Origin: Halofilum ochraceum
Lineage (GTDB): Bacteria; Pseudomonadota; Gammaproteobacteria; XJ16; Halofilaceae
Length of the DNA stretch: 64,000 nt
Assembly: GCF_001614315.2 (NCBI RefSeq)
Contig: NZ_LVEG02000001.1
Location: 310,001 to 374,000, forward strand
Direction of reading: 5' to 3'
Positions 13,788 through 28,830 of the stretch are shown here, piece after piece; within the stretch, counting starts at the first letter, position 1; every line of letters begins with the position of its first letter. The position numbers and the translations under genes were made by a program. The notes beneath the pieces are model-generated. The model saw nothing but the letters and a program-made list of their open reading frames with translations, was not told where the DNA came from and did not search any database.

Positions 13788-14111
13788 TCAGTCCCATCTC
13801 GGATCGCGGACCTGGATCCAGCCCTCGTCGTTGACGCGCACCGGGAAGGTTTCGGTCGCTTCATAGGCGGGCGGGGTGAGGGCCTCGCCGGTCTTGATGC
13901 AGAACTTCGCACCGTGGCGCGGGCAGACGATGCAGTCGTCCTCGATCTCGCCGCCGGAGAGTTCGGCGCCGTCGTGGGTGCAGACGTCTTCAAGGGCGTA
14001 GAAGTCACCCTCGATGTTGAATACGACGATATCGACGTCGTCGACGTCGATCACGCGGTATTCACCGGGTAGCAGTTCGTCCTTCTTCGCGACATCCGTC
14101 CAGTCAGACAT
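13788..14111 (-). CDS. Rieske-type [2Fe-2S] ferredoxin, last gene of the suf operon
   Basis: A 107-aa non-heme Rieske ferredoxin with the cluster boxes CTHDGAEL (Cys, His) and CPRHGAKF (Cys, His). It resembles the ferredoxin subunits of ring-hydroxylating oxygenases but stands alone at the end of the suf operon, where it may donate electrons during cluster assembly. I used ATG 14111 (MSDWTDV), the normal start of the fold; an upstream in-frame ATG at 14210 would add a basic, low-complexity extension. The 130-bp spacer to sufT holds no other gene. Confidence 0.88.
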   Translation of the reverse strand: MSDWTDVAKKDELLPGEYRVIDVDDVDIVVFNIEGDFYALEDVCTHDGAELSGGEIEDDCIVCPRHGAKFCIKTGEALTPPAYEATETFPVRVNDEGWIQVRDPRWD

Positions 14112-14241
14112 CGAGTCGTTCCCGCCGGTTGGTGTTTTCGGTGAGGTTTCGCGCTGCCCGCGCCAGAGATCCACCGGGCGGCGGCCGCCGTATGTCCGGC
14201 GCTTACCCACGGTGCAGTCTCGTAATTTCCGTATTCCGCAC

Positions 14242-14790
14242 TTACATCATGCCCGTCTGCAGGCGCGCGGTCTCGGACATCATGTCCGGCCCCCAGGGCG
14301 GGTCGAATACGAGTTCGACATCGCACTGCTCGACGCCGGGGATCAGCTCGACGCTGTAGCGCACGTCATCGGCGATGACGTCGCCCATGCCGCAACCGGG
14401 GGCGGTCAGGGTCATGCGGATCTCGACGTACCAGCTCTCGTCGGTGGCGCGGCGAACATCGCAGTCGTAGACGAGGCCGAGATCAACGATATTGATGGGG
14501 ATCTCGGGGTCGTAGCAGGTCTCGAGCTGGCGATAGACCGCCGCCTCGATGTCCTTGTCGCTCGGATTGTCCGGGACCGCGGGACCCTCCATGGGGTCGC
14601 GGCCAAGCGCATCCGCGTCCTCATTGGCGATCCGGGCGAGGTTGCCGCCGATGTTGACGGTGAAACTGCCGCCCAGTGCCTGGGTGATGATGACCTGCAT
14701 GCCCTTGGGCAGAATGATCCGGTCGCCCGATGGCACGCGGATCGCCTGGACACCGCGCGAGAGCGTGATCGGTTCGTAACCCTGCATCAT
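14242..14790 (-). CDS. sufT: SUF system auxiliary protein SufT (MIP18/DUF59 family)
   Basis: SufT-type Fe-S maturation factor. The N-terminal portion carries the SufT-specific stretch (LSRGVQAIRVPSG, ITQALGGSFTV); the C-terminal MIP18 domain has CYDPEIPINIVDLGLVYD and TLTAPGCGMGD with its conserved cysteine. Known SufT proteins help deliver clusters to targets such as lipoate synthase and aconitase. I chose ATG 14790, 8–10 nt after AAGGA, which gives 182 aa; a TTG at 14811 is also in frame. It follows sufS with a 13-bp gap. Confidence 0.92.
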   Translation of the reverse strand: MMQGYEPITLSRGVQAIRVPSGDRIILPKGMQVIITQALGGSFTVNIGGNLARIANEDADALGRDPMEGPAVPDNPSDKDIEAAVYRQLETCYDPEIPINIVDLGLVYDCDVRRATDESWYVEIRMTLTAPGCGMGDVIADDVRYSVELIPGVEQCDVELVFDPPWGPDMMSETARLQTGMM

Positions 14791-14803
14791 GGCGTTGAAT
14801 CCT

Positions 14804-16057
14804 TCAGGCAAGCATCGCGCGGACGTTTGCGATGCCTTCGATCAGGCGGTCGACGTCCGCACGGGTATTGTAAAACGCGAACGATGCGCGCGCAGTCCCC
14901 GCGAGCCCGAAATGCTCCATCGCCGGCATGGCGCAGTGATGACCGGTACGGATCGCGACGCCCTCCTGATCGATCAGCATGCCGAGATCATTGGGGTGGA
15001 CGCCGTCGATGACGAACGAGAGCACGCCGGCCTTCTCCGGCGCCCTCCCGATGATCCGCAGGCCCTCGATCTCGTGGGCTCGCTCGTGCGCGTAGGCGAG
15101 CACGTCGGCCTCCTGGGCCGCCATGCGATCGATCCCGATCCCGTTGATATAGTCGACCGCGGCTCCGAGACCGATCGCGCCGGCGATGTTCGGGGTGCCC
15201 GCCTCGAAGCGGTTCGGGATCACCTGGAACTCGCTGCCGGAGAAGCTGACTTTGGTGATCATCTCGCCGCCGCCCTGGTACGGGGGCATGGCCTCCAGGA
15301 TATCGGCCTTCGCGTACAGGACGCCGATGCCGGTCGGACCAAACATCTTGTGCCCGGAAAAGCAGTAGAAGTCGGCGTCGAGCGCCTGCACGTCGACGGC
15401 GAAATGCGGCACGGACTGTGCCCCGTCGACCAGTACCGGTACACCGTGCGCGTGGGCGCTCGCGATCATGTCGCCCACCGGGTTGATGGTGCCCAGCGCA
15501 TTGGAGACATGGCCGATCGCGAGCAGGCGCGTCCGTGGGCCGATGAGGCGCTCGAACTCGTCGAGTTGCAGTACGCCGTCGTCATCGAACGGAATCACCC
15601 GGAGCGTCGCCCCGGTCTGCTCCGCCACCAGCTGCCACGGGACGATGTTGGAGTGATGCTCCATCTCCGAGAGAAGGATCTCGTCCCCCGGCTGCAGCAG
15701 CGGCCGCAGGTAGGCCTGCGCCACGAGATTGACCGATTCGGTGGTGCCGCGTGTGAATACGAGCTCACGCGATTCCGCGGCATTGATGAAATCGGCGATT
15801 TTCGCGCGCGCATCCTCGTACTGCGCGGTGGCGCGCTCGGCGAGGGTATGCACACCGCGATGGATGTTCGAATTCGTCTCGCGGTAGTAGCGGTCGATCG
15901 CCTCGATCACCGCCGTCGGCTTCTGCGAGGTCGCCGCATTATCCAGATACACGAGCGGGTGCCCGCCCACCTCCTGACGGAAGATGGGGAAGTCGTCCCG
16001 CAGCCGCTCGATATCGAGCGGCCCGGAGGCGGTTGCGGTATCGGTGACGGCGGTCAT
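14804..16057 (-). CDS. sufS: Group II cysteine desulfurase SufS
   Basis: PLP-dependent enzyme that takes sulfur from L-cysteine as a persulfide and feeds it to the SufBCD scaffold. PLP binds Lys237 in SGHKMFGPTG; the persulfide-forming residue is Cys375 in RTGHHCAMP. The length of 417 aa is normal. The start overlaps the sufD stop by 4 nt (ATGA). Type II desulfurases need a sulfur acceptor (SufE or SufU), yet neither gene is in this operon. Confidence 0.97.
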   Translation of the reverse strand: MTAVTDTATASGPLDIERLRDDFPIFRQEVGGHPLVYLDNAATSQKPTAVIEAIDRYYRETNSNIHRGVHTLAERATAQYEDARAKIADFINAAESRELVFTRGTTESVNLVAQAYLRPLLQPGDEILLSEMEHHSNIVPWQLVAEQTGATLRVIPFDDDGVLQLDEFERLIGPRTRLLAIGHVSNALGTINPVGDMIASAHAHGVPVLVDGAQSVPHFAVDVQALDADFYCFSGHKMFGPTGIGVLYAKADILEAMPPYQGGGEMITKVSFSGSEFQVIPNRFEAGTPNIAGAIGLGAAVDYINGIGIDRMAAQEADVLAYAHERAHEIEGLRIIGRAPEKAGVLSFVIDGVHPNDLGMLIDQEGVAIRTGHHCAMPAMEHFGLAGTARASFAFYNTRADVDRLIEGIANVRAMLA

Positions 16058-17388
16058 ACGAATTCCTGGATACGCTCCGCATGCGGCAGTTCGTCGATGA
16101 CGAAGCCCTGCAGCCAGTCGCGCAGCGGTTCGATGCTCATGCGCTCGATTGTCGCTTCCGCGAAGGCGTAGAGGAGCAGCCCACGCGCGGTCTCGTGATC
16201 CACGCCGCGTGAGCGCAGATAGAAGAGGGCGCGCGTGTCGAGCTGGCCCACCGTCGCCCCGTGCGTGCAGACCACGTCGTCGGCGTAGATCTCGAGTTCC
16301 GGCTTGGTGTCGATCTCGGCTTTGCCGGAGAGCAGCAGGTTGTCATTCGACTGATACGCGGCCGTCTTCTGCGCGTGCGGTGCCACATACACGCGGCCGT
16401 TGAACACGCCCCGGGCGTACCCGTCGAGGATGCCGCGGTAGGCCTCCTCGCTGGTCGTGTTCGGCTGGTTGTGGTTGATGCGCGTGTGCGTATCAACGTG
16501 TTGCCGGCCGTTGACGAGGTAGAGGCCGTTGTACAGTGTCTCCGCGCCTTCGGCGTTCAGGGCCGTGTTGATATCGGTGCGGCACAGCGCGGCGCCGATC
16601 TGCACGTTGTGCTGCTCCAGGCGGCTGTTCCCGGCCTGGTTCACGTGCAGGCTCCCGATATGGAAGCCCTTGCGGCTCTCGCGCTGGATCCGGTAGTGAG
16701 CGATCCGGGCGCCCTCGGCCAGGCGCGCCTCGGTGACGGCATTGGTCAGGTTCTGCGGATCGTCCATGCCGACATAGTGCTCGATGATCGTCGCCTCGCC
16801 GTGATGGGCGGCATCGATCAGGATGCGCGGATGGGCCGCCACCGGTTCGTCGCACAGCGTCGAGACGAACAGGAGTTCGATCGGGCGCTCGACCCGGCGG
16901 TCGGCCGCGACCTCGATGACGGCGCCGTCCTCCGCGAAGGCGGTGTTGAGCGCGGTAAAGCCGCTGAAGTGGGTGGGCGCCGCGTCGGCGAGCCGGTCCT
17001 TCAGGGCGTCCGGGTCCTCGGCCAATACCTGTGCGAGGCTACGCACTCGCACGGCGTCGTCGGCCATGTCGCCGTCGGACAGCGCCGCGGCATAGTGGCC
17101 GTTGATGAACACGAGCCGATGCGCATCGAGATCCGGGATGCGCAGCGCTTCGATCCGCTCGGCGTCGGCCGTGGCGCCCGCCGCATCCGGGCGGGCGAAA
17201 TCGCGCTTGGCGATCGCCTTGGTGCTGGTGTACTTCCAGTCCTCGATGCGCTGATTCGGCAGGCCCATTTCGGCGAAACGCGCCACCGCGTCCCGCCGCA
17301 GGTCTGCGACCCACTCGCTGGAGTCGCCCGGGCGCTCTCCCTGCAGACGTTCGAGCAGTCGGGTTGCGGTTTCGTCTACGGCCTTCAT
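16054..17388 (-). CDS. sufD: Fe-S cluster assembly protein SufD
   Basis: SufD subunit (444 aa) of the SufBC2D scaffold on which [Fe-S] clusters are built. The C-terminal beta-helix and helical cap carry the motifs CTHGATVGQLD and LFYLRSRGVDHETARGLL typical of SufD; the His in CTHG corresponds to the residue implicated in cluster formation at the SufB/SufD interface. It overlaps sufC and sufS by 4 nt each, so expression is tightly coupled. Confidence 0.95.
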   Translation of the reverse strand: MKAVDETATRLLERLQGERPGDSSEWVADLRRDAVARFAEMGLPNQRIEDWKYTSTKAIAKRDFARPDAAGATADAERIEALRIPDLDAHRLVFINGHYAAALSDGDMADDAVRVRSLAQVLAEDPDALKDRLADAAPTHFSGFTALNTAFAEDGAVIEVAADRRVERPIELLFVSTLCDEPVAAHPRILIDAAHHGEATIIEHYVGMDDPQNLTNAVTEARLAEGARIAHYRIQRESRKGFHIGSLHVNQAGNSRLEQHNVQIGAALCRTDINTALNAEGAETLYNGLYLVNGRQHVDTHTRINHNQPNTTSEEAYRGILDGYARGVFNGRVYVAPHAQKTAAYQSNDNLLLSGKAEIDTKPELEIYADDVVCTHGATVGQLDTRALFYLRSRGVDHETARGLLLYAFAEATIERMSIEPLRDWLQGFVIDELPHAERIQEFV

Positions 17389-18155
17389 GCGGACTCGGCC
17401 TCCTCGTTGCGGATCCAGTCGTATCCGTGCTCTTCGAGTTCATGTGCGAGCTGCTTGTCACCGGACTTCAGCACCTGTCCGCGCGCCAGTACATGGACGC
17501 GGTCGGGCTGGATGTGGTCGAGCAGGCGCTGGTAGTGCGTGACCAGCACGATCGCCCGGTCCGGACTGCGCATCTTCTCGACGCCCTGGGCGACGATCTT
17601 GAGCGCATCGATGTCGAGGCCCGAATCGGTCTCATCCATGACGCACAGTTCGGGTTCCAGCACCATCATCTGGAATACCTCGTTGCGCTTTTTCTCGCCG
17701 CCGGAGAAGCCCTCGTTGACGGAGCGCTTGAGGAAGCTCTCGTCCATGCCCATGAGCTTCATCTTCTGCTTGACGTCGGTGAGGAAATCGACCGAGTCGA
17801 TCTCGTCCAGCCCCCGGTGCTTGCGCTTGGCATTCACCGCGGACTTGAGCAGATAGATGTTGTTCACGCCCGGGATTTCGACCGGGTACTGGAACGCAAG
17901 AAAGACGCCCTCGTGGGCCCGCTCTTCCGGTTCCATCTCCAGCAGGTTCTGCCCCTTGTACGTCACCGAGCCCTCGGTCACTTCATAGTCGTCACGCCCG
18001 GCCAGGATATGCGCCAGCGTCGACTTGCCGGAGCCGTTCGGCCCCATGATCGCGTGCACCTCGCCGGCGTTCACCTCGAGGTTCAGGCCGCGAAGGATTT
18101 CCGCGTCCTCGGCCTTCGCGTGCAGGTTGGTAATCTTCAGCATCGGTTCAGTCAT
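17385..18155 (-). CDS. sufC: SUF scaffold ATPase SufC
   Basis: Cytosolic ABC-type ATPase (256 aa) that powers conformational change of the SufBCD scaffold; it is not a transporter. Walker A is GPNGSGKST, the signature is FSGGEKKR, and Walker B is CVMDETDSGLD. It starts 150 bp after sufB; that gap contains a REP twin, so sufC may be translated or stabilised differently from sufB. Confidence 0.97.
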   Translation of the reverse strand: MTEPMLKITNLHAKAEDAEILRGLNLEVNAGEVHAIMGPNGSGKSTLAHILAGRDDYEVTEGSVTYKGQNLLEMEPEERAHEGVFLAFQYPVEIPGVNNIYLLKSAVNAKRKHRGLDEIDSVDFLTDVKQKMKLMGMDESFLKRSVNEGFSGGEKKRNEVFQMMVLEPELCVMDETDSGLDIDALKIVAQGVEKMRSPDRAIVLVTHYQRLLDHIQPDRVHVLARGQVLKSGDKQLAHELEEHGYDWIRNEEAESA

Positions 18156-18305: not shown

Positions 18306-19757
<1,452 letters not shown>

Positions 19758-19775: not shown

Positions 19776-20243
19776 CTAGTGGTTGATCTCGAGTTCGCCG
19801 GTAACTGCCCGCCGCAGATCGAAGCGCTGCAGCGGTACCGTGGTCGGCGCCGCGAGATCCGCCAGGCTGATTTCTTCCAGGGCCGCCCGGATGGCCCGGT
19901 TGATCCGCTGCCAGTGATGGCCGACGGTACATATGTCTTCAAGCTCGCAGTGGCGGTCGCTGAGACCGCACTCGGTCATCGCCATAGGCCCCTCGACCAG
20001 GTCGATGATGCGGGTGGCGCTGATATCCTCGGGCGCCTCCGCGAGCAGGTAGCCGCCGTGGGCACCGCGATAGGATTTCAGCAGGCCGGCGCGCACGAAC
20101 TGCTTGAGCAGTTTGCTGACTGTCGGCCGCCCGAGCCGCGTCTGCTCCGACAGGTCCGCCGCCGTGTATACCCGGTCCGGATCGCGGGCCATCGTGGCGA
20201 GTACCACCGTGGCATAATCGGTAAGCTTGCTGACTCTGAGCAT
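19776..20243 (-). CDS. Rrf2-family SUF operon regulator with IscR-like cluster ligands
   Basis: Rrf2/IscR-type winged-helix repressor of 155 aa, first gene of the suf operon and probably its Fe-S-sensing regulator. The HTH lies at residues ~28–55 (LSEQTRLGRPTVSKLLKQF). Cys92, Cys99 and Cys105, followed by His109/His110, closely match IscR's [2Fe-2S] ligands (Cys92, Cys98, Cys104, His107). Two inverted repeats directly upstream are candidate operators for autoregulation. It resembles the SUF regulators of Xanthomonas and Chromatiales more than enterobacterial IscR. Confidence 0.92.
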   Translation of the reverse strand: MLRVSKLTDYATVVLATMARDPDRVYTAADLSEQTRLGRPTVSKLLKQFVRAGLLKSYRGAHGGYLLAEAPEDISATRIIDLVEGPMAMTECGLSDRHCELEDICTVGHHWQRINRAIRAALEEISLADLAAPTTVPLQRFDLRRAVTGELEINH

Positions 20244-20263: not shown

Positions 20264-20278
20264 TTAGACTGCGTCTAA
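20264..20278. promoter_or_regulatory. Inverted repeat 1, candidate operator upstream of suf regulator
   Basis: Perfect palindrome TTAGAC-TGC-GTCTAA, 21 bp upstream of the Rrf2 regulator start codon, placed to overlap a promoter or early leader. Confidence 0.55.
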
Positions 20279-20280
20279 TT

Positions 20281-20299
20281 GAGTACGATTCTAGTACTC
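20281..20299. promoter_or_regulatory. Inverted repeat 2, candidate Rrf2 operator
   Basis: Perfect arms GAGTAC and GTACTC with a 7-nt AT-rich spacer, 2 bp from inverted repeat 1, in the divergent region between the suf regulator and the LivJ-type gene. Both repeats are AT-richer than the surroundings. Confidence 0.5.
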
Positions 20300-20423
20300 T
20301 TTAAGTCGCAATGGAAGGGGCTGCGCCGGCCCGACTCCGCAATGGCGGGCATTTACGTTGACACCCGGGCACTGGTCCGCCAAGAATGACGAGCCACCAA
20401 AAACAACACTGTGGAGGTCCACG

Positions 20424-21674
20424 ATGTCGATCAGCATCCCCCATCGTCGGCGCGGCGTGCGCCGCACGGCGACGATCGCGGCCGCCGCGGCCCTCATGGT
20501 CGCTGGCGGTACGGCCGTCCAGGCGGCCGATGGCCCGCTCAAACTCGGTGCGCTGATGCCGATGACGGGCGATCTGCAGGCCTACGGCCAGACCTCGCTC
20601 AACGGTATCGAGCTGGCTGCGATGGAGATCAACGCCGCGGGCGGCGTTCACGGCCAGGACATGGAGATCGAGCTCGGCGATACCCAGACCAACCCGCAGT
20701 CGGGGATCGATGCCGCGAAGCAGTTGGTCTCCATCGATGGCGTATCCGGCATCGTGGGCGCGCTTTCCTCGGGCGTGACGATCCCGGTCGCGCAGAGCGT
20801 GACCAGCAAGGAGGGGGTTCCGCAGATTTCCGGGGCCTCGACCTCGCCGGTGATCACGGGCCTCGATGACAACGACTTCATGTTCCGCACCGTGCCCTCG
20901 GATGCCTTCCAGGGTCGGGCGCTGGCCGAGGTCGTGGCCGCGGACGGCTTGAGCAACGTTTCGATCCTGTACGTGAACAACGACTACGGCGAGGGGCTGG
21001 CGGACAGCTTCAGTGCCGCGTTCGAGGGCCGTGACGGCACGGTGGACGAGCGCATCGCCTACGAGAAGGGCAATGCTTCCTATCGCGGCGAACTGTCGAA
21101 GGCCGCCGATGGCGGCGCCGAGGCACTCGTGCTGATCGGTTATCCCGAAAGCGGTGTGACCATCCTGCGCCAGGCCCTTCAGGGCGGGCATTTCGACCGC
21201 TTCGTGTTCACCGATGGCATGAAAGCGCCGGAGATCATCGATGCGGTAGGCGCCGACCTGCTCGAAGGCAGCTTCGGCACCGCCCCGGAGGCGCTGACCG
21301 ATACCGACGCCGCGCAGCACTTCCGGAGCACTTACGAGGGCGAGTACGGCGAGGTGCCGCCGAAGCCGTTCATCGATACCGCCTATGACGCGACCTGGGT
21401 GCTTGCACTCGCGGCCCAGGCGGCCGGCCGCAACGATGGCGAGGCCGTACGCGATGCCCTGCGCGATGTCGCCAATCCGCCCGGTGAGCAGATCCTGCCC
21501 GGGGAATGGAAAAAGGCCATGCAGCTGCTCGCCGATGGCGAGGACATCAACTACAGCGGTGCTTCGGGATCGATCAACTTCGATGACAACGGTGATGTCA
21601 GCGGCACGTTCGCCCATTGGGTGATCCGCGACGGGGAGATCAGTACCGAAAAGGTCTTCGAACCCGGTAAGTAA
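20424..21674 (+). CDS. ABC transporter periplasmic substrate-binding protein, LivJ type
   Basis: Class I solute-binding protein (416 aa) of the branched-chain amino acid/amide family. A basic N-terminus and hydrophobic stretch ending ~VQAAD form a signal peptide; the mature protein opens with KLGALMPMTGDLQAYGQ, the usual LivJ beginning, and continues with the two-lobed fold. ATG 20424 follows GGAGGT with 5-nt spacing. No permease or ATPase gene is adjacent, yet livMHFG lacking a binding protein lie at 56–59.5 kb. The ligand is not identifiable from sequence and could be amino acid, urea or amide. Confidence 0.88.
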   Translation: MSISIPHRRRGVRRTATIAAAAALMVAGGTAVQAADGPLKLGALMPMTGDLQAYGQTSLNGIELAAMEINAAGGVHGQDMEIELGDTQTNPQSGIDAAKQLVSIDGVSGIVGALSSGVTIPVAQSVTSKEGVPQISGASTSPVITGLDDNDFMFRTVPSDAFQGRALAEVVAADGLSNVSILYVNNDYGEGLADSFSAAFEGRDGTVDERIAYEKGNASYRGELSKAADGGAEALVLIGYPESGVTILRQALQGGHFDRFVFTDGMKAPEIIDAVGADLLEGSFGTAPEALTDTDAAQHFRSTYEGEYGEVPPKPFIDTAYDATWVLALAAQAAGRNDGEAVRDALRDVANPPGEQILPGEWKKAMQLLADGEDINYSGASGSINFDDNGDVSGTFAHWVIRDGEISTEKVFEPGK

Positions 21675-21723
21675 AAGTAAGGCGATTCCGGCGCCCCGGT
21701 ACCGCCGGGACGGAATCGAGAAC

Positions 21724-21764
21724 ACGGCCCGGCTCCGCATTGTGCGGGGTCGGGCCGTTTCGTT
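21724..21764 (+). terminator. Intrinsic terminator after the LivJ-type gene
   Basis: A stem of about 16 bp (ACGGCCCGGCTCCGCA with TGCGGGGTCGGGCCGT, two mismatches) around a short loop, followed by TTTCGTT, 50 bp after the stop codon. Confidence 0.75.
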
Positions 21765-21806
21765 ACCGCACGGCCCGTGAGGGGCGATCACGAAAGGGCA
21801 AGTCGA

Positions 21807-23114
21807 ATGAACCAACCCGGAGCCCGCTCGTGCCCGGCAGTACTGGTAACGGCGCCCGCGTCGGGGCAGGGCAAGACCACCGTGACCGCGGCACTCGCGC
21901 GCGCATGGCGCAACCGGGGGTTGCGCGTACAGGCGTTCAAGACGGGGCCGGATTTCATCGATCCGACGATCCTCGAATGCGCGACCGGGCGACCGGTGTA
22001 CCAGCTGGATCTGTGGATGGGCGGCGAGGATGACTGCCGCCGGCGCCTGCAGGCCGCGGCGGGCGCGGCCGATCTGATCGTAATCGAGGGTGTCATGGGT
22101 CTGTTCGACGGCAATCCGTCGAGCGCGGATCTCGCCGTGCGTTTTGGCGTCCCGATCCTGGCGGTCATCGATGCCTCGGCGATGGCGCAGACGTTCGGCG
22201 CCATCGTCCACGGACTCGATCAATTCCGCGACGGCGTACGGCTCGCCGGCGTGATCGCCAATCGGACTGGCAGCGCCGGTCATGGCGATTTCCTGGCCGA
22301 ATCGATGCCGACCGGAATTCCCCTGTGGGGCGCGCTCCGGCGCGACCAGGCGGTCGAACTGCCGTCGCGGCATCTTGGCCTCGTGCTGGCCAGTGAACTC
22401 GAAGATCTCGACTCGAGACTGGAGCGGGCGGCAGGGCAGCTCGAGCCGTTATTGCCGGCGGAGTTGGCTTCCGGGGACTTCCCGCCCCCGCTGGAGCCGG
22501 AGCCGGCGGCCGCCACACACCTGGATGGCGTGCGCATCGCCGTCGCCCGGGATGCCGCATTCTGTTTCGTCTACCGCGCGAATCTCGATCTGCTCGAGGC
22601 GCTTGGAGCGGAGCTCGCGTTCTTTTCGCCGCTTGTCGATACCGACCTGCCGGCGGATACGGATGCCGTCTATCTGCCCGGGGGATATCCCGAACTGCAC
22701 GCCGCGGCCCTGTCGGCGAACGAGTCCCTGAAAGCCTCGCTGCGGGGATTCCACGCGCGCGGGCGCCCGATCGTCGCTGAATGTGGTGGCATGCTCTGGC
22801 TGCTCGAACGGCTGCAGCCGCTCGACGAACCGGCCTCTCCAATGGTCGGACTGGTCGCCGGTGAGGCCGAGATGCAGCCGCGTCTCACTGCTTTGGGGAT
22901 GCAGGCGTTCGATTTGCCCGGTGGAACGCTGCGTGGGCATACCTTCCATCACGCGCGGCTCGAAAAGGCGCCGGAGGCGTCCGGGCACGCGACCAACCCG
23001 CGCGGGCGGGGTGCGGCGGAAGCCGTCTTCCGCGACGGCGCGCTCACCGCCTCTTTCCTGCACTGGTATTTCCCGTCGAACCCCGAGGCGACGGCACGGC
23101 TGTTCCGGGGTTGA
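21807..23114 (+). CDS. cobB: Cobyrinate a,c-diamide synthase (CobB/CbiA)
   Basis: Glutamine-dependent amidase that converts the a and c carboxylates of (hydrogeno)cobyrinic acid to amides in B12 synthesis. The N-terminal ATP-binding domain has APASGQGKTT and TGPDFIDP; the C-terminal class I glutaminase domain has the catalytic Cys in AECGGML and a late HWYF histidine. I used ATG 21807 (435 aa), the normal family start. No other cob gene is nearby, so this copy is an orphan in the window. Confidence 0.93.
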   Translation: MNQPGARSCPAVLVTAPASGQGKTTVTAALARAWRNRGLRVQAFKTGPDFIDPTILECATGRPVYQLDLWMGGEDDCRRRLQAAAGAADLIVIEGVMGLFDGNPSSADLAVRFGVPILAVIDASAMAQTFGAIVHGLDQFRDGVRLAGVIANRTGSAGHGDFLAESMPTGIPLWGALRRDQAVELPSRHLGLVLASELEDLDSRLERAAGQLEPLLPAELASGDFPPPLEPEPAAATHLDGVRIAVARDAAFCFVYRANLDLLEALGAELAFFSPLVDTDLPADTDAVYLPGGYPELHAAALSANESLKASLRGFHARGRPIVAECGGMLWLLERLQPLDEPASPMVGLVAGEAEMQPRLTALGMQAFDLPGGTLRGHTFHHARLEKAPEASGHATNPRGRGAAEAVFRDGALTASFLHWYFPSNPEATARLFRG

Positions 23115-23142
23115 GCCTCGCGACATCAAACGCCGGCCGGAT

Positions 23143-23161
23143 GCCGCCTTGCGGCGGGTTT
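23143..23161 (+). terminator. Weak hairpin between convergent cobB and ccmI
   Basis: GCCGC and GCGGC around a CTT loop, then GGGTTT. Short stem and short T run; it may end cobB transcription. Confidence 0.4.
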
Positions 23162-23177
23162 CAGCCTAGATCAAGCA

Positions 23178-24443
23178 TCAGGGGATGCGCTGGTCGATCG
23201 TGACGGTCGCGCGCGCATCGGGCCCGATCTCGACCGTGCCGCTTTCGCCCTGGAGGTCACCGCTCTGCGCCATGACACCGCCCTGGAGCGACGCGCGTGC
23301 CGTGACCCGGACCTGGTTGGCCTGCGAGAGCGTTTGATTCGGGGTCATCGCCTGCGCGTCGGTGAGCGTGATTTCGACCGGCAGCGCATCGACGGTCGTA
23401 CGCTGCACGGCGAGCGGTGCACCACCATTGGCATCGGCCGGGCGGGCGAAAATGAACACCGTGGTTCCGGCTGGAGCGGCATCCGCCAGCGAAGGCGCCA
23501 GCGATACTCGTACCGTAACGGCAGCGTCACCCCCATCGTCGGCCTTCTCGGCGTTGGAGCCGGACGGCGCCGACGCCATTGATGGTTCTCCAGCACCACG
23601 ATCGCCGCCCCGCGCCTCGGCGATCAGGCGTTCGAGCATCGCGCGGTTCTCGCTGTCGGCCGGCATATCCTCGGCGAGCCGGCGCCAGTAGCTGACGGCC
23701 TGTGCGTCATCGCCCCGCGCCATCGCCGCATGGCCGGCAAGCATCAGGGCCAGCGGGTTACGCTCGTCCAGGTCCAGTGCGCGTTGCACCAGGCGCTCGA
23801 CGCTGCTCGTGAACCGCCGACCGTTTGCCAGCAGGAGCGCCTCGGCCTGGCGTGCCATCAACCATGGGTCAGGTTCCCCCTGGGACTGGACCCGCGCATA
23901 AGCACTCACCGCATCGCCATAGCGCTCGGTGGCCCGGTACGCCTGTGCAAGCAGGATCCAGGCGCGGGTGGCCTGCGGCTGCCGCTCCACCACCGGCTCG
24001 AGTTCGGCGATGCGGCGCTCTGGCCCCATGCTGCGGAAACGCTCGACCTGGGCTGGCGACAGGCCCCCTGATTCGCCGCCATCGGTCAGGCCCGGGCTGC
24101 CGGTTGCCATATAAACGGCTACCGCAACGACGGGCACCGTGGTGGCGACGCCCAGCAGGGTGGGCCAAGATCGGTCATGGCCCATGGTCGCCCCGCGAGC
24201 GTTGCGCTCCGGAGCCACCGCGAGCAGTTCGCGTTCAAGCTCCTCGCGGGCCTCGGCGAATTCGGCATCGTTCAGATTGCCGCGCTCGTATTCGCGCACG
24301 AGTTCGGCATCGCGTTCGCGGTAGACATCGAGGCCGGACTCGTCATCCCGGCGGCCGCTGACGCGCCGCGCCCGGAGGGGCCACGCGACAGCGCCGATCG
24401 CCAGCACGGTCATGATCAGCGCGATCAGGATAAATGCGGTCAT
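23178..24443 (-). CDS. ccmI: Cytochrome c maturation protein CcmI
   Basis: Apocytochrome c chaperone of the System I haem ligation complex. Two N-terminal membrane helices flank a short cytosolic loop; a periplasmic TPR domain (repeats such as AWILLAQAYRATERYGDAVSAYA) binds the C-termini of apocytochromes c. The ~130 C-terminal residues form a beta-rich extension. The length of 421 aa is normal. Last gene of the ccm operon; it overlaps ccmH by 1 nt (TGATG). Confidence 0.92.
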   Translation of the reverse strand: MTAFILIALIMTVLAIGAVAWPLRARRVSGRRDDESGLDVYRERDAELVREYERGNLNDAEFAEAREELERELLAVAPERNARGATMGHDRSWPTLLGVATTVPVVAVAVYMATGSPGLTDGGESGGLSPAQVERFRSMGPERRIAELEPVVERQPQATRAWILLAQAYRATERYGDAVSAYARVQSQGEPDPWLMARQAEALLLANGRRFTSSVERLVQRALDLDERNPLALMLAGHAAMARGDDAQAVSYWRRLAEDMPADSENRAMLERLIAEARGGDRGAGEPSMASAPSGSNAEKADDGGDAAVTVRVSLAPSLADAAPAGTTVFIFARPADANGGAPLAVQRTTVDALPVEITLTDAQAMTPNQTLSQANQVRVTARASLQGGVMAQSGDLQGESGTVEIGPDARATVTIDQRIP

Positions 24444-24922
24444 CAGGTCTCCGGGCCGTCGTCATCGGAGCTGAGCAGGCGCCGGGCGCGTTCGTGTTCC
24501 TCGGCGGTCAGCGGGCGTGAGTCCGTGCGTTGGCGGACGATCATGACGGCAATGCCGCCAGCCAATACCAGCAGGATCGCGGGTCCGAACCACAGCAACC
24601 AGGTCGACGGCTGCATCGGCGGGCGATAGAGCACAAAATCGCCGTAGCGGGCCGTCAGGAACTCGATCGCTTCTTCGCGCGAGCGGTCTTCGACCACCAC
24701 CAGTCGGTATACCTCGCTGCGCAGGTCCTGGGCCAGCTCGGCGCCGGAACTCGCCAGTGACTCGTTCTGACAGACCAGACAGCGGATCTCTTCCAGCAGG
24801 TCGCGGTAGCGGTTTTCTTCCGCGGCGTTGTCGAATTCGCGGATCGTCTCGCTGGCGATCAGCGGGCCGGCAGCGCACAGCGCAAAGGCGAATGCCAGGA
24901 TCGGCCGTAACACACCCGTCAT
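24443..24922 (-). CDS. ccmH: Cytochrome c maturation thioreductase CcmH
   Basis: Membrane-anchored thiol protein (159 aa) that reduces the CXXCH disulfide of apocytochromes before haem attachment. A signal/anchor helix is followed by the redox motif RCLVCQNES (Cys48, Cys51) in a three-helix domain, then a TM helix (PSTWLLWFGPAILLVLAGG). It overlaps ccmG by 4 nt. This is the short CcmH type, with CcmI encoded separately. Confidence 0.95.
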   Translation of the reverse strand: MTGVLRPILAFAFALCAAGPLIASETIREFDNAAEENRYRDLLEEIRCLVCQNESLASSGAELAQDLRSEVYRLVVVEDRSREEAIEFLTARYGDFVLYRPPMQPSTWLLWFGPAILLVLAGGIAVMIVRQRTDSRPLTAEEHERARRLLSSDDDGPET

Positions 24923-25461
24923 GACGTCTCTCCCCGCTGGAGGCGGCGCACGAGGGGCAGGATTTCCCGCTTCAGTTTTTCCATGGACACGGGGCCGATC
25001 GTCTTGTGGCGGATGATCCCCTCGGCGTCGATCACGTAGGTCTCGGGTACGCCATACACGCCGAGATCGATCCCGACCCGACCCTCGGGGTCGAAGGCGC
25101 TGGCGAAATACGGATCCCCGCGCTGCTCGAGCCAGCGCAATGCCGCCCCGCGCTCGTCCTTGTAGTCGAGGCCGAGGATGCGGACGCCGTCACGCGAGGC
25201 GGCTTCCATCAGTACATGATGTTCCTCGCGGCAGCCGGCACACCAGGTCGCCCAGATGTTCAGCAGCCACACCTCGCCCTGCAACTCCGCGGGCCCGATG
25301 CGCCCGGCGTCGGCCTCGAGCCGTGGCAGGTCGAAATCCGGGACCGGTTTTCCGATCAGCGGTGACGGCACCCGCGAGGGGTCTTTCGTGAGTCCCACCG
25401 CAAGGAATGCGGCGATCACGAGGAACAGCACCAGCGGGATGAGATACCGGGCGCGCAGCAT
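24919..25461 (-). CDS. ccmG: Thiol:disulfide interchange protein CcmG/DsbE
   Basis: Periplasmic, membrane-tethered thioredoxin-fold reductant (180 aa) for CcmH and apocytochromes. It has an N-terminal TM helix (residues ~5–24), and the active site WCAGC (Cys74, Cys77) within NIWATWCAGCREEH. The CcmG-type motif GVYGVPETYVID with the cis-Pro is present. Gap to ccmF is 3 nt. Confidence 0.95.
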   Translation of the reverse strand: MLRARYLIPLVLFLVIAAFLAVGLTKDPSRVPSPLIGKPVPDFDLPRLEADAGRIGPAELQGEVWLLNIWATWCAGCREEHHVLMEAASRDGVRILGLDYKDERGAALRWLEQRGDPYFASAFDPEGRVGIDLGVYGVPETYVIDAEGIIRHKTIGPVSMEKLKREILPLVRRLQRGETS

Positions 25462-25464
25462 GGA

Positions 25465-27444
25465 TCAGGCCCCGGCTGGCTGTGCCGCCGCCATGTCGGC
25501 CTGGCGGCGCCGATGGGAGCGGTAGCGCCGGTCGGTGACGGCGAGCACGCCGCCGAGCGACATCAGCGCGGCGCCGAGCCAGATCCAGCGCACGAACGGT
25601 TTGTGGTATAGCCGCACGCTCCAGGCGCCATTGTCGTCGAGTGGCTCACCCAGCGAGGCATACAGATCGTGCGTGAAACCCGGGTCGATGCCCGCTTCCG
25701 TCATGGGCTGGCCGCCCGAGGCGTAGAAGCGCTTTTCCGGCTTGAGGGTCGTGACCGTGCTGTTGTCGCGGGTGACGACGAAGTCGCCGGTCGAGGCACG
25801 GTAATTCGGTCCCTGGGTCTGCTTTACGCCCTCGAAACGGACCGTGTAGCCGGCAAGCGTCGCGGTATCCCCGGGTTCCATCCGCAGCCGCGACTCGATG
25901 TTGTAGGCGCTCGAAATGGTGATTCCGACCACCGTGACGGCCAGGCCGATATGCGCGAGCGTCATACCGTATACCCCCGCCGGCAGTCGCCGTAATGCCG
26001 CGAAGGTGCCGCGTTGGCCCGATAGCTGCGTCCGGACCGCCTGGACATTGCCGAGCACGACCCAGACGGCCAGTCCGAGGCCGAGCACGACACCCCATTC
26101 GATACTGCCGCCACCGACCATCGCGGCCATGGCGATACCCAGTACCACGCTGGCGACCAGCGCGTAGCGCAGATGGGCCCACAGGCGAGCGACGCTGTCC
26201 CGCTTCCAGCGGACCATCGACCCGACCCCGACAAGCGCGAGGAGCAGGATCATCAGCGGCACGAACACCAGATTGAAGTAGGGCGGGCCCACCGAGAGCT
26301 TGCCGAAGCCGAGTGTTTCCACGACCAGCGGGTAGAGCGTTCCCAGCAGGACCGTGAGCATGCTCACGATCAGGATCACATTGTTGCCGAGCAGGAAGGT
26401 CTCGCGCGATACGCCCTCGAAGCGGCTGCCCCCCAGCGTCTGCGGCCCTCGCAGCGCGTACAGCAGCAGGCTGCCACCGACGACGACTCCGAGGAAGCCA
26501 AGGATGAACACGCCGCGCGTCGGATCCGTGGCGAACGCATGGACCGAGGTCAGCACGCCGGAGCGCACGATGAACGTCCCCAGCAGCGACAGCGCAAATG
26601 CGGTGATCGCGAGCAGCACCGTCCAGCTCTTGAATGCGCCGCGTTTCTCCGTCACCGCCAGCGAATGGATGAGGGCGGTACCCACGAGCCACGGCATGAA
26701 GGAGGCGTTCTCGACCGGATCCCAGAACCACCAGCCGCCCCAGCCGAGCTCGTAGTAGGCCCACCAGCTGCCGAGTGCGACGCCGGCGGTGAGGAACACC
26801 CACGCGACACCGACCCACGGCCGCGCCCAGCGCGCCCAGGCCGCGTCGAGGCGACCGCCGAGCAGCGCCGCGATCGCGAAGCCGAACGCGACCGACATGC
26901 CGACATAGCCCATGTAGAGCATCGGCGGATGGATGATCATGCCGATGTCCTGCAGCAGGGGATTGAGATCGGCGCCGTCCATCGGCGCGGGATTCAGCCG
27001 GGCGAAGGGGTTGGAAGTCAGCAGCATGAACAGCAGGAATCCGACGCTGATCATGCCCATCACCGCGAGCACGCGGGCGCTGAGCACCTGCGGTAGACTG
27101 CGCGAACACAGGGCCACGGCCATCGTCCAGCCGGCAAGGACCAGGGTCCAGAGCAGGATAGAGCCCTCATGTCCGCCCCAGACCGCGGTGAGGCGATAAT
27201 ACCAGGGCAGGATCCGGTTCGAGTTCTGTGCGACGTAGGCGACGGAGAAATCGCTGACGTAGAAGCTCCAGGACAGGGCCGCGAACGCGAACGCCACAAA
27301 GGCGAACTGCGCGCAGGCGGCCGGTCCGGCCAGGTTCATCCAGGCCACTTTGCCACGGTGGGCGCCGATCAGGGGCAGCGTTGCCTGAACCAGCGCGAGC
27401 CCCAGGGCGAGCGAGATGGCGATATTGCCGAGTTCGGGGATCAT
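25465..27444 (-). CDS. ccmF: Haem lyase subunit CcmF
   Basis: Large polytopic haem lyase (659 aa) that transfers haem from holo-CcmE to apocytochromes c. The periplasmic WWD domain is GWGGWWFWDPVENASFMPW; membrane histidines flank it. About 15 TM helices and a long periplasmic C-terminal loop (~residues 500–620) are visible, as usual. It overlaps ccmE by 1 nt. Confidence 0.97.
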   Translation of the reverse strand: MIPELGNIAISLALGLALVQATLPLIGAHRGKVAWMNLAGPAACAQFAFVAFAFAALSWSFYVSDFSVAYVAQNSNRILPWYYRLTAVWGGHEGSILLWTLVLAGWTMAVALCSRSLPQVLSARVLAVMGMISVGFLLFMLLTSNPFARLNPAPMDGADLNPLLQDIGMIIHPPMLYMGYVGMSVAFGFAIAALLGGRLDAAWARWARPWVGVAWVFLTAGVALGSWWAYYELGWGGWWFWDPVENASFMPWLVGTALIHSLAVTEKRGAFKSWTVLLAITAFALSLLGTFIVRSGVLTSVHAFATDPTRGVFILGFLGVVVGGSLLLYALRGPQTLGGSRFEGVSRETFLLGNNVILIVSMLTVLLGTLYPLVVETLGFGKLSVGPPYFNLVFVPLMILLLALVGVGSMVRWKRDSVARLWAHLRYALVASVVLGIAMAAMVGGGSIEWGVVLGLGLAVWVVLGNVQAVRTQLSGQRGTFAALRRLPAGVYGMTLAHIGLAVTVVGITISSAYNIESRLRMEPGDTATLAGYTVRFEGVKQTQGPNYRASTGDFVVTRDNSTVTTLKPEKRFYASGGQPMTEAGIDPGFTHDLYASLGEPLDDNGAWSVRLYHKPFVRWIWLGAALMSLGGVLAVTDRRYRSHRRRQADMAAAQPAGA

Positions 27445-27908
27445 TACTGCTCCGCGGTGGTGCCGGATTCGGGGGCATAGCCGGTCTTCGCCCGCTCGAG
27501 TGCCTCGGCGGCCTCCGGCGGCATGTAATTCTCGTCATGCTTGGCCAGCACGCGCTCGGCCCGGAATACGTTGTCGGCGGTCAGACGACCGTCCGCGACG
27601 ACGCCCTGGCCCTCCCGGAAAAGGTCCGGGAGTACGCCCTCGTACTCCACCATGACCGCCTCGGCCGTATCCGTGATCCGGAACCGGACGCCGAGCGAGT
27701 CATCGTCGCGCCGCACACTGTCTTCGGCCACGAGACCTCCGATACGGAATTTGCGATCGGCCGGCGCCTTGCCTTCCGCGACCTCGGTCGGCGTATGGAA
27801 ATACACCAGGTTCTCGCTGAACGCGGCGAGCAGAAGCGAGGTGGCGCCACCGACACCGAGTACCAGCAGTCCGACCAGTGTCAGTCTTTTCTTTCGGCGA
27901 GGTGTCAT
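27444..27908 (-). CDS. ccmE: Periplasmic haem chaperone CcmE
   Basis: Membrane-anchored haem chaperone (154 aa). N-terminal TM (residues ~10–30), then an OB-fold domain, then the haem-binding motif HDENY, in which His124 binds the haem vinyl covalently and Tyr128 is the axial ligand. Its start overlaps the ccmD stop by 4 nt. Confidence 0.96.
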   Translation of the reverse strand: MTPRRKKRLTLVGLLVLGVGGATSLLLAAFSENLVYFHTPTEVAEGKAPADRKFRIGGLVAEDSVRRDDDSLGVRFRITDTAEAVMVEYEGVLPDLFREGQGVVADGRLTADNVFRAERVLAKHDENYMPPEAAEALERAKTGYAPESGTTAEQ

Positions 27909-28069
27909 CGACGGTTTCCGGCGGCCCGGCGGGATATCCGTTCGCGCAGCGCGCGTTCACGCCGGTGGGGGATGATCGCGTTGGCGATCAGCACGATCAG
28001 TACGAGCGCATATGACGGCCACACGAAGGCCGCGTAGCCGCCCATTGCGAGGAAGCTCTGCCAATCCAT
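27905..28069 (-). CDS. ccmD: Small membrane protein CcmD
   Basis: A 54-residue protein missed by length cut-offs. It begins MDWQSFLAMGGYAAFVWPSY, followed by a single TM helix (SYALVLIVLIANAIIP) and a basic cytoplasmic tail (RRERALRERISRRAAG). This is the standard CcmD layout. CcmD is needed to release holo-CcmE from the CcmABC complex. Its ATG overlaps the ccmC stop by 1 nt and its stop overlaps the ccmE start by 4 nt, so it is embedded in the operon. Confidence 0.95.
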   Translation of the reverse strand: MDWQSFLAMGGYAAFVWPSYALVLIVLIANAIIPHRRERALRERISRRAAGNRR

Positions 28070-28830
28070 CAGGGATTCCGGGGTTCAGTCGCGGTCGGGG
28101 TGACCCATTCACGCACCCACCCACTGGCCGCTTCGGTCTCTAGGATATCGCAGCGGGCGCGTTTGAGCACGACTGCCGCGAAGTAGGCCATGAATCCCGC
28201 CGCGCTCACCAGCAGCGGCAGCAGCATTTCCATCGGCATCGACGGGCTGTCGAATTTGGTGACCGTCGCGCCCTGGTGGAGCGTGTTCCACCACTCCACG
28301 GAATAGTGAATGATCGGGATATTGATCACCCCGACCAGCGCCAGCACCGCACCGGCACGGCCGGCCGTCTCGCGCTGCTCGATCGCCGACTGCAGTGCCA
28401 TGAAGCCGAGGTACAGGAACAGCAGGATCAGTTCCGAGGTCAGCCGCGCGTCCCAGACCCAATACGCGCCCCACATCGGTTTCCCCCAGAGCGAGCCGGT
28501 TACCAGTGCAAGAAAGGTAAAACTGGCCCCCAGAGGTGCCGCCGCGCGCATCAATGAGGCCGCCACCTTCATGCGCCACACCAGCACCAGCAGACCGCAG
28601 CAGGCCATGAACATCCAGGTGAACATCGACATCCAGGCCGAGGGCACATGCACGAAGATGATGCGATAGCTCTCGCCCTGCTGGTAATCGGGCGGCGCGA
28701 TGACCAGTCCCCAGTAGAGCCCGGTGGCGAGCAGGATGACTGACAGCCCGCCGAGCCATGGCGTCAGCCGCCACGCGAGCGCATAGAAATATTTCGGCGA
28801 ACCGAGTTTGTGGAACCAGACCAGATTCAT
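28069..28830 (-). CDS. ccmC: Haem handling protein CcmC
   Basis: Six-TM protein (253 aa) that loads haem onto CcmE. The tryptophan-rich WWD domain reads WGKPMWGAYWVWDARLTSE, and conserved periplasmic histidines lie in IFVHVPSAWMS and around IHYSVEWWNTLHQG. Normal length. The 100 bp to ccmB contain a hairpin but no gene. Confidence 0.96.
   Translation of the reverse strand: MNLVWFHKLGSPKYFYALAWRLTPWLGGLSVILLATGLYWGLVIAPPDYQQGESYRIIFVHVPSAWMSMFTWMFMACCGLLVLVWRMKVAASLMRAAAPLGASFTFLALVTGSLWGKPMWGAYWVWDARLTSELILLFLYLGFMALQSAIEQRETAGRAGAVLALVGVINIPIIHYSVEWWNTLHQGATVTKFDSPSMPMEMLLPLLVSAAGFMAYFAAVVLKRARCDILETEAASGWVREWVTPTATEPRNP

Follow-up and report, generated by a model that had tools for sequence, protein, structure and literature searches.

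We consider it likely that the regulator-sufBCDS promoter of Halofilum ochraceum carries a compact two-input operator, in which the adjacent SUF-system regulator would occupy one palindrome (pal2) and a FUR-family protein of the Irr/PerRA kind the other (pal1). The two palindromes were studied within a window of 64,000 nucleotides (65% G+C), the whole stretch of DNA analysed here. Pal1, TTAGAC-TGC-GTCTAA, occupies 20264..20278, and pal2, GAGTAC-N7-GTACTC, occupies 20281..20299 as the core of a predicted 25-bp operator on the minus strand (20278..20302). The sequence holds both exactly where the first-pass annotation had placed them, with the dinucleotide TT between them. Both are real and conserved, and most likely they serve two different regulators as operators.

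The SUF-system Rrf2-family regulator consists of 155 amino acids (19776..20243, minus strand; TIGR02944, 155.8 bits against a cut-off of 110.65; PF02082). It is the first gene of a same-strand row that gene order suggests as a candidate operon, followed on the minus strand by sufB (18306..19757; NF008773, 900 bits), sufC (17385..18155; TIGR01978, 368 bits), sufD (16054..17388; TIGR01981, 278 bits), sufS (14804..16057; TIGR01979, 586 bits), and a sufT-like gene (14242..14811; TIGR03406, 250 bits). The row ends with a gene for a Rieske-type ferredoxin-like protein (13788..14123, minus strand), whose best NCBIfam matches are ferredoxin subunits scoring under their cut-offs. The divergent neighbour encodes a livJ-type substrate-binding protein (20424..21674, plus strand; NF011933, 116 bits, under the cut-off of 477). 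Downstream of it, within 20424-28830 of the window, lie cobB and then cytochrome c biogenesis genes, the latter recognised by eye, and no branched-chain amino-acid permease was recognised among the ORFs inspected.

Taken alone, one perfect inverted repeat with 6-bp arms could arise by chance: the window contains 503 of them with loops of 0 to 12 nucleotides, and 22 pairs are spaced by 6 bp or less. Pal1 and pal2 form the only such close pair with at least three A/T letters in both arms, and it is conservation that lifts them above chance. Absence from close relatives had been named beforehand as the outcome that would count against the palindromes; when the comparison was run, both were kept in two congeneric genomes. 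The 43-bp block that contains them is identical at 38 of 43 positions in one congener (G001) and at 34 of 43 in the other (G002), compared to 21/56 and 17/57 (ungapped) for the flank just upstream of the block in the same two genomes. The 2-bp gap between the palindromes is preserved in all three congeneric species.

Pal2 is very probably the operator of the adjacent SUF regulator, as predicted from a class-wide alignment of upstream regions. TIGR02944 scored above its cut-off in 105 of 369 genomes of the class, and the upstream DNA of 104 of these was used, G343 being excluded for its partial gene. Motif discovery by expectation maximisation (EM) on these regions with 60 random seeds returned, in its six best runs, shifts of one and the same motif (best AAATAGTACTAAAATAGTCCT), with a log-likelihood of 1081 compared to 29.5-43.5 in ten shuffled sets (12 seeds each). 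The aligned flanks lengthen this motif to 25 bp, with AWWT at its end. Sites were scored by leave-one-out, the three congeners being removed together, against 520 shuffles with a 99% level of 5.9 bits and a maximum of 10.9. A pal2-type site exceeds the 99% level in 103 of the 104 upstream regions and the highest shuffle in 100; G067, G151 and G349 fall inside the shuffle range, and G062 is the only region scored that lacks such a site. The motif reads AAWTAGKACTANWATAGTMCTAWWT, and the site studied here reaches 22.5 bits against the threshold of 5.9.

The same alignment places the operator relative to the promoter. Motif columns 10-15 read TANAAT, and further upstream no columns exceed 0.15 bits except a TT that opens a hexamer at a 17-bp spacer. 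Since these two elements stand at the -10/-35 distance from each other, the operator is placed on the -10 of the regulator-suf promoter. In the window, the -10 hexamer TAGAAT (20288..20293, minus strand) lies inside the operator at motif positions 10-15, and a weak -35 hexamer TTCCAT (20311..20316, minus strand; TTGCCG in G002) precedes it at the 17-bp spacer. A scan for consensus promoters did not include the regulator-suf promoter in its list. Because the pal2-type site covers the -10 hexamer, a protein bound at pal2 would likely act by occluding RNA polymerase. A pattern built from the congeners' pal2 sites, allowing one mismatch, recovered in the three congeneric genomes their own sites and one extra place (in G000); with only this one further match, the SUF regulator looks local. 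Tandem double sites of the SUF type were seen by eye upstream of the SUF-regulator genes of G016, G248, G043, G232, G090, G239, G183 and G116, and double operators may be common in this regulator family.

The regulator itself shares only part of the ligand set of IscR. Residues C92, C99, C105 and D9 are invariant in 40 aligned SUF regulators of the 105 found, whereas conservation among the same 40 does not extend to the His positions that follow C105. The earlier description of Cys/His ligands that mirror those of IscR thus holds for the three cysteines (40 of 40) but not for the histidine, and the Cys3-His set of IscR is not conserved in these proteins. The regulator also remains below the NCBIfam cut-off for IscR (66.7 bits against 207.55). 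Profile positions 2-132 match residues 1-132 of 5n07 (NsrR), so that D9 corresponds to Asp8 if the alignment is gap-free there; in Streptomyces NsrR, according to the accessible part of the literature, the cluster is held by three Cys and Asp8. From the four invariant residues and this correspondence, an iron-sulfur cluster bound by three Cys and Asp9 appears likely, and the predicted ligand pattern is closer to NsrR and RisR than to IscR.

Pal1 follows a different rule and is best read, from its sequence and targets, as a predicted FUR-family box of the Irr/PerR type. A search for TTAGAC-N{0,12}-GTCTAA found eight places in the three congeneric genomes, all eight with N3, while the reversed-pattern control gave 1, 0 and 0 matches. 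Exact boxes lie upstream of suf in all three genomes. G000 and G001 also have them before bacterioferritin, which has a BFD-like gene beside it, and before a PF11449 heavy-metal exporter, and G002 has one before a metal ABC ATPase-permease pair, an importer; the target families were scanned on the G000 or the G002 copy. One-mismatch boxes are confined to G002, where one precedes a gene that by eye is bacterioferritin-like and another a HiPIP gene. A box with two mismatches, TAGAATGAGTCTAA, is found shortly upstream of fur in each genome (G000:C5:281112, G001:C2:70787, G002:C1:100298), but sites with two mismatches are frequent by chance and fur is a weak candidate target.

Across the class, the exact box occurs in 80 of 369 genomes. 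Among the matches listed, 70 exact-box loci comprise 47 with the box upstream of rubrerythrin, four with gpmI, three with katG, two with cytochrome c peroxidase (ccp) and two with the Irr-like gene described below, and 12 have none of the listed targets; none of these targets was met at 56 positions drawn at random from an initial set of 30 loci. Rubrerythrin, ccp and, in the congeners, bacterioferritin, all of them Irr-type targets, have the box upstream. In four loci (L074, L085, L086, L251), the exact box is flanked by gpmI (phosphoglycerate mutase) on one side and a gene for an ArsR-type regulator on the other, both recognised by eye; as a target in an iron or peroxide regulon, gpmI is unexpected. 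One locus (L078:1501-1546) carries two exact boxes, with starts 31 bp apart, before a single rubrerythrin gene. The main text of a paper on this rubrerythrin lineage does not contain Fur, PerR, Irr or regulator as whole words (PMC5114695).

Each congeneric genome encodes three FUR-family proteins and one DtxR-family protein (MntR by best model). One of the FUR-family proteins is Irr-like: IrrA and Irr are its two best NCBIfam families, although it stays under both cut-offs (127.5 of 150 and 117.4 of 170 bits), and PF01475 matches with 62 bits. Its best solved-structure match is 5nl9 (FUR family, 72 bits), which we take to be PerRA of Leptospira interrogans. The Irr-like proteins contain no or one Cys and no CxxC, and feature an HHH motif (H97 and H99 in 31 of 31, H98 in 28 of 31). 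H43, D91, H97, H99, D110 and the recognition-helix residue N67 are present in all 31. The first five align with the five regulatory metal ligands of Bacillus subtilis PerR, which are numbered H37, D85, H91, H93 and D104. A report on Leptospira describes, in its accessible part, Irr proteins as having the PerR Asp and the helix Asn without CxxC, and the self-regulating sequences of perRA as similar to Irr boxes (PMC8638967).

The distribution of the Irr-like gene follows that of the box. It is present in 69 of the 80 genomes with the exact box and in 88 of the 289 others (odds ratio 14.3, p 1.8e-19; counts that ignore shared ancestry), 11 of the 80 lacking it, while the reversed-pattern control is unrelated to the gene (43/101, odds ratio 1.0). 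The SUF regulator, by the same kind of count and with the same disregard of ancestry, occurs in 16 of the 80 box genomes and in 89 of the 289 others (odds ratio 0.56, p 0.07). A further comparison covered 87 of the 160 genomes with rubrerythrin, its Irr-positive set being weighted towards genomes without the exact box. When a match of 10 or more of the 12 letters was required, a box preceded rubrerythrin in 47 of the 51 genomes with the Irr-like gene and in 9 of the 36 without it; these counts likewise ignore shared ancestry, and some of the 36 are incomplete assemblies. Irr-negative G153 and G242, known to have the exact box, were left out, and adding both would give 11/38 instead of 9/36. 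Some of the rubrerythrin boxes in Irr-positive genomes read TTAGAA-N3-TTCTAA. The Irr-like gene itself is preceded by a degenerate box in 12 of its 30 top-scoring loci, compared to 2% for shuffled letters, and in 11 of the 12 the distance is 40-65 bp; no box was seen in the gene's own upstream region in the three congeners. In three genomes, the Irr-like gene adjoins rubrerythrin or lies within about 2.5 kb of it (G350:C2:144152-145306, L349; G095:C228, L348; G251:C49, L350), a proximity that supports their link.

Among other proteins that could read pal1, MntR (DtxR family) and Fur are both encoded in this genome (G000 MntR, 202 bits against a cut-off of 153; G001 Fur, 198 against 146), and genes for metal import (ABC type) and metal export are among the box targets. 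MntR could bind pal1 in this genus, but across the class it was detected (E up to 1e-15) in only 29 of the 369 genomes, and its overlap with the box genomes is restricted to the three congeners; the boxes at rubrerythrin, katG and ccp therefore stand in genomes without detected MntR. As for Fur, its recognition helix carries an Arg where the Irr-like proteins have Asn in 31 of 31 sequences. We regard it as unlikely that either of the two is the protein that reads pal1. TTAG...CTAA also resembles IdeR sites; a DtxR/IdeR-type box was considered for pal1 and dropped, as the distribution of MntR did not fit.

The first-pass annotation had proposed that the SUF regulator could use the two palindromes alike as operators. 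In such a reading, one dimer would sit on each and repression would be co-operative. The constant 2-bp spacing in three species, the GAC/GTC-like half-sites of both palindromes, and the apparently doubled site of several relatives, e.g. G016 (by eye), are compatible with such an arrangement. However, the GAC and GTC halves of pal1 are 3 bp apart, not 7 bp, its sequence recurs at the bacterioferritin, exporter and ABC genes of the same three genomes, 101 of the 104 SUF-regulator upstream regions have no full pal1 match, and the box is not enriched in genomes with a SUF regulator (the odds ratio of 0.56 above). For pal2, the assignment stands (class-wide site, 103/104); for pal1, it was rejected on spacing, regulon and co-occurrence, and a shared use of both palindromes by the SUF regulator is very improbable.

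Two readings in which the palindromes are not operators of the suf promoter fare worse still. Pal1 lies within the predicted 5' leader and could in principle act as an RNA hairpin (attenuation) rather than as a DNA site, but the hairpin is absent from the minimum-energy fold of a 51-nt leader piece (z -1.09), and the arm letters are the same at unlike genes without covariation, in a search made for those very letters; there is hardly any room for this possibility. That the palindromes serve the livJ-type gene, on which the first-pass annotation had suggested a possible effect, is very improbable: the gene is divergent in all three congeners (by tblastn in the two relatives, with 90% and 49% identity), yet its promoter-like match TTGACA-18-AAGAAT (20358..20387, plus strand; consensus scan) is clear of both palindromes and starts 58 bp beyond pal2, and five of five loci from other genera have no livJ-type gene within flanks of 1.5-4 kb, while the three of these that were scored (G042, G019, G150) all have a pal2-type site.

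Returning to the operator with two inputs, the pairing of pal1 and pal2 is a genus-level arrangement: a full box accompanies the SUF regulator in just 3 of 104 upstream regions, all from this genus, although the SUF regulator and the Irr-like gene occur together in 32 genomes. The 25-bp operator and pal1 share base 20278, and their centres are 19 bp apart. From the position of the -10, we infer that pal1 spans about +3 to +17 of the regulator-suf transcript, just after its start. We postulate that the SUF regulator, with an iron-sulfur cluster held by its three Cys and Asp9, would bind the 25-bp site over the -10. When clusters are plentiful, RNA polymerase would be blocked and the regulator would repress itself together with the suf genes, and loss of the cluster would derepress suf. 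The Irr/PerRA-kind regulator, whose gene lies elsewhere in the genome, would bind the 15-bp box that closely follows the -10, linking suf to an iron/peroxide regulon of bacterioferritin, metal import and export, and possibly fur. At the start of the transcript, it would probably act as a second block, gated by iron or peroxide. As the two sites touch, the two proteins may compete or co-operate.

The signal at pal1 may be iron, heme or peroxide. Irr proteins repress at low iron (PMC3413700), and PerR proteins are released on peroxide (PMC10294975), as far as the accessible parts of these reports describe them. The class-wide targets rubrerythrin, katG and ccp make us lean towards peroxide. The suf genes may in this way answer both the supply of iron-sulfur clusters and iron or peroxide signals. 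A wider proposal, to which we give about an even chance, concerns much of the Gammaproteobacteria: there, an Irr/PerR-like protein without a zinc site would control, through an Irr-type box, a peroxide/iron regulon of rubrerythrin, katG, cytochrome c peroxidase and its own gene, and in this genus it would have captured suf, bacterioferritin and metal transport by means of a box docked at the SUF operator. In this genus, it would then take on the task that is divided in E. coli among OxyR, Fur and IscR.

With these observations, the SUF regulator family TIGR02944 gains an operator that can be put to the test; we found no evident binding study of this family in the open-access literature. They further point to the box that an Irr/PerR-like regulator of Gammaproteobacteria probably reads and to the genes it probably controls, and the same literature yielded no description of this regulator, of the pal1-pal2 layout or of this lineage. 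As a whole, the predicted binding of two proteins within 40 bp of DNA outlines a way in which one promoter could join cluster supply with the iron/peroxide state.

Several known systems share parts of this arrangement, the comparisons being drawn from the accessible portions of the reports cited. RisR of Myxococcus xanthus, also an Rrf2 protein, is a repressor of both isc and suf whose footprint, on T(t/g)GAC-N7-GTCC, covers the -10 (PMC9973013). The class-wide motif presented here likewise has GAC-N7-GTC over the -10, and both regulators combine AT flanks of the operator with three Cys, although the spacing of the latter differs (C92, C102 and C108 in RisR, C92, C99 and C105 in the SUF regulator; PMC9973013). 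Unlike the regulator described here, RisR also controls isc, and the portion of that report available mentions no Irr-type box (PMC9973013). The type-1 consensus of IscR, ATASYYGACTRWWWYAGTCRRSTAT, is 25 bp long and has the same layout; the E. coli and Pseudomonas sites share with the SUF operator the 25-bp frame, an ACT-N5-AGT core, AT ends and a position near promoter elements (PMC6599224). The half-site is GKAC in the SUF-regulator operator compared to YGAC in IscR type-1 sites (PMC6599224), and the SUF regulator lacks the conserved IscR-type His. PerRA of Leptospira interrogans resembles the Irr-like protein in having no CxxC, in its catalase and ccp targets and in self-regulating sequences similar to Irr boxes; in contrast, it is a spirochaete protein, and control of suf is not mentioned for it in the portions available (PMC8638967, PMC10294975).

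The nearest parallel is the joint control of the isc-suf operon of Rhodobacter sphaeroides, which is acted on by both IscR and Irr (PMC6956336), so the logic of two such inputs is known. Of the Irr boxes there, TTAGAAATATTCTAGA at the suf promoter P3, some 50 nt before the start, is bound by Irr, whereas those predicted at P1 and P2 are not bound by it in vitro (PMC6956336), and suf levels are higher in an irr mutant (PMC3413700). Genes bound or affected by alphaproteobacterial Irr include rubrerythrin-like genes, bfr, ccpA and suf (PMC6956336, PMC3413700). Alphaproteobacterial Irr boxes, as described in these portions, have TTAGAA in the position of the TTAGAC seen here, and the Irr-like protein, unlike alphaproteobacterial Irr, scores under the Irr cut-offs. 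In Halofilum, the box lies shortly after the -10 and borders directly on the Rrf2 operator, in contrast to the upstream position of the Rhodobacter P3 site (PMC6956336). Common to both systems are a box of the TTAGA-N5-TCTAA type, found at P3 and class-wide, and the sharing of suf with an Rrf2 regulator (PMC6956336).
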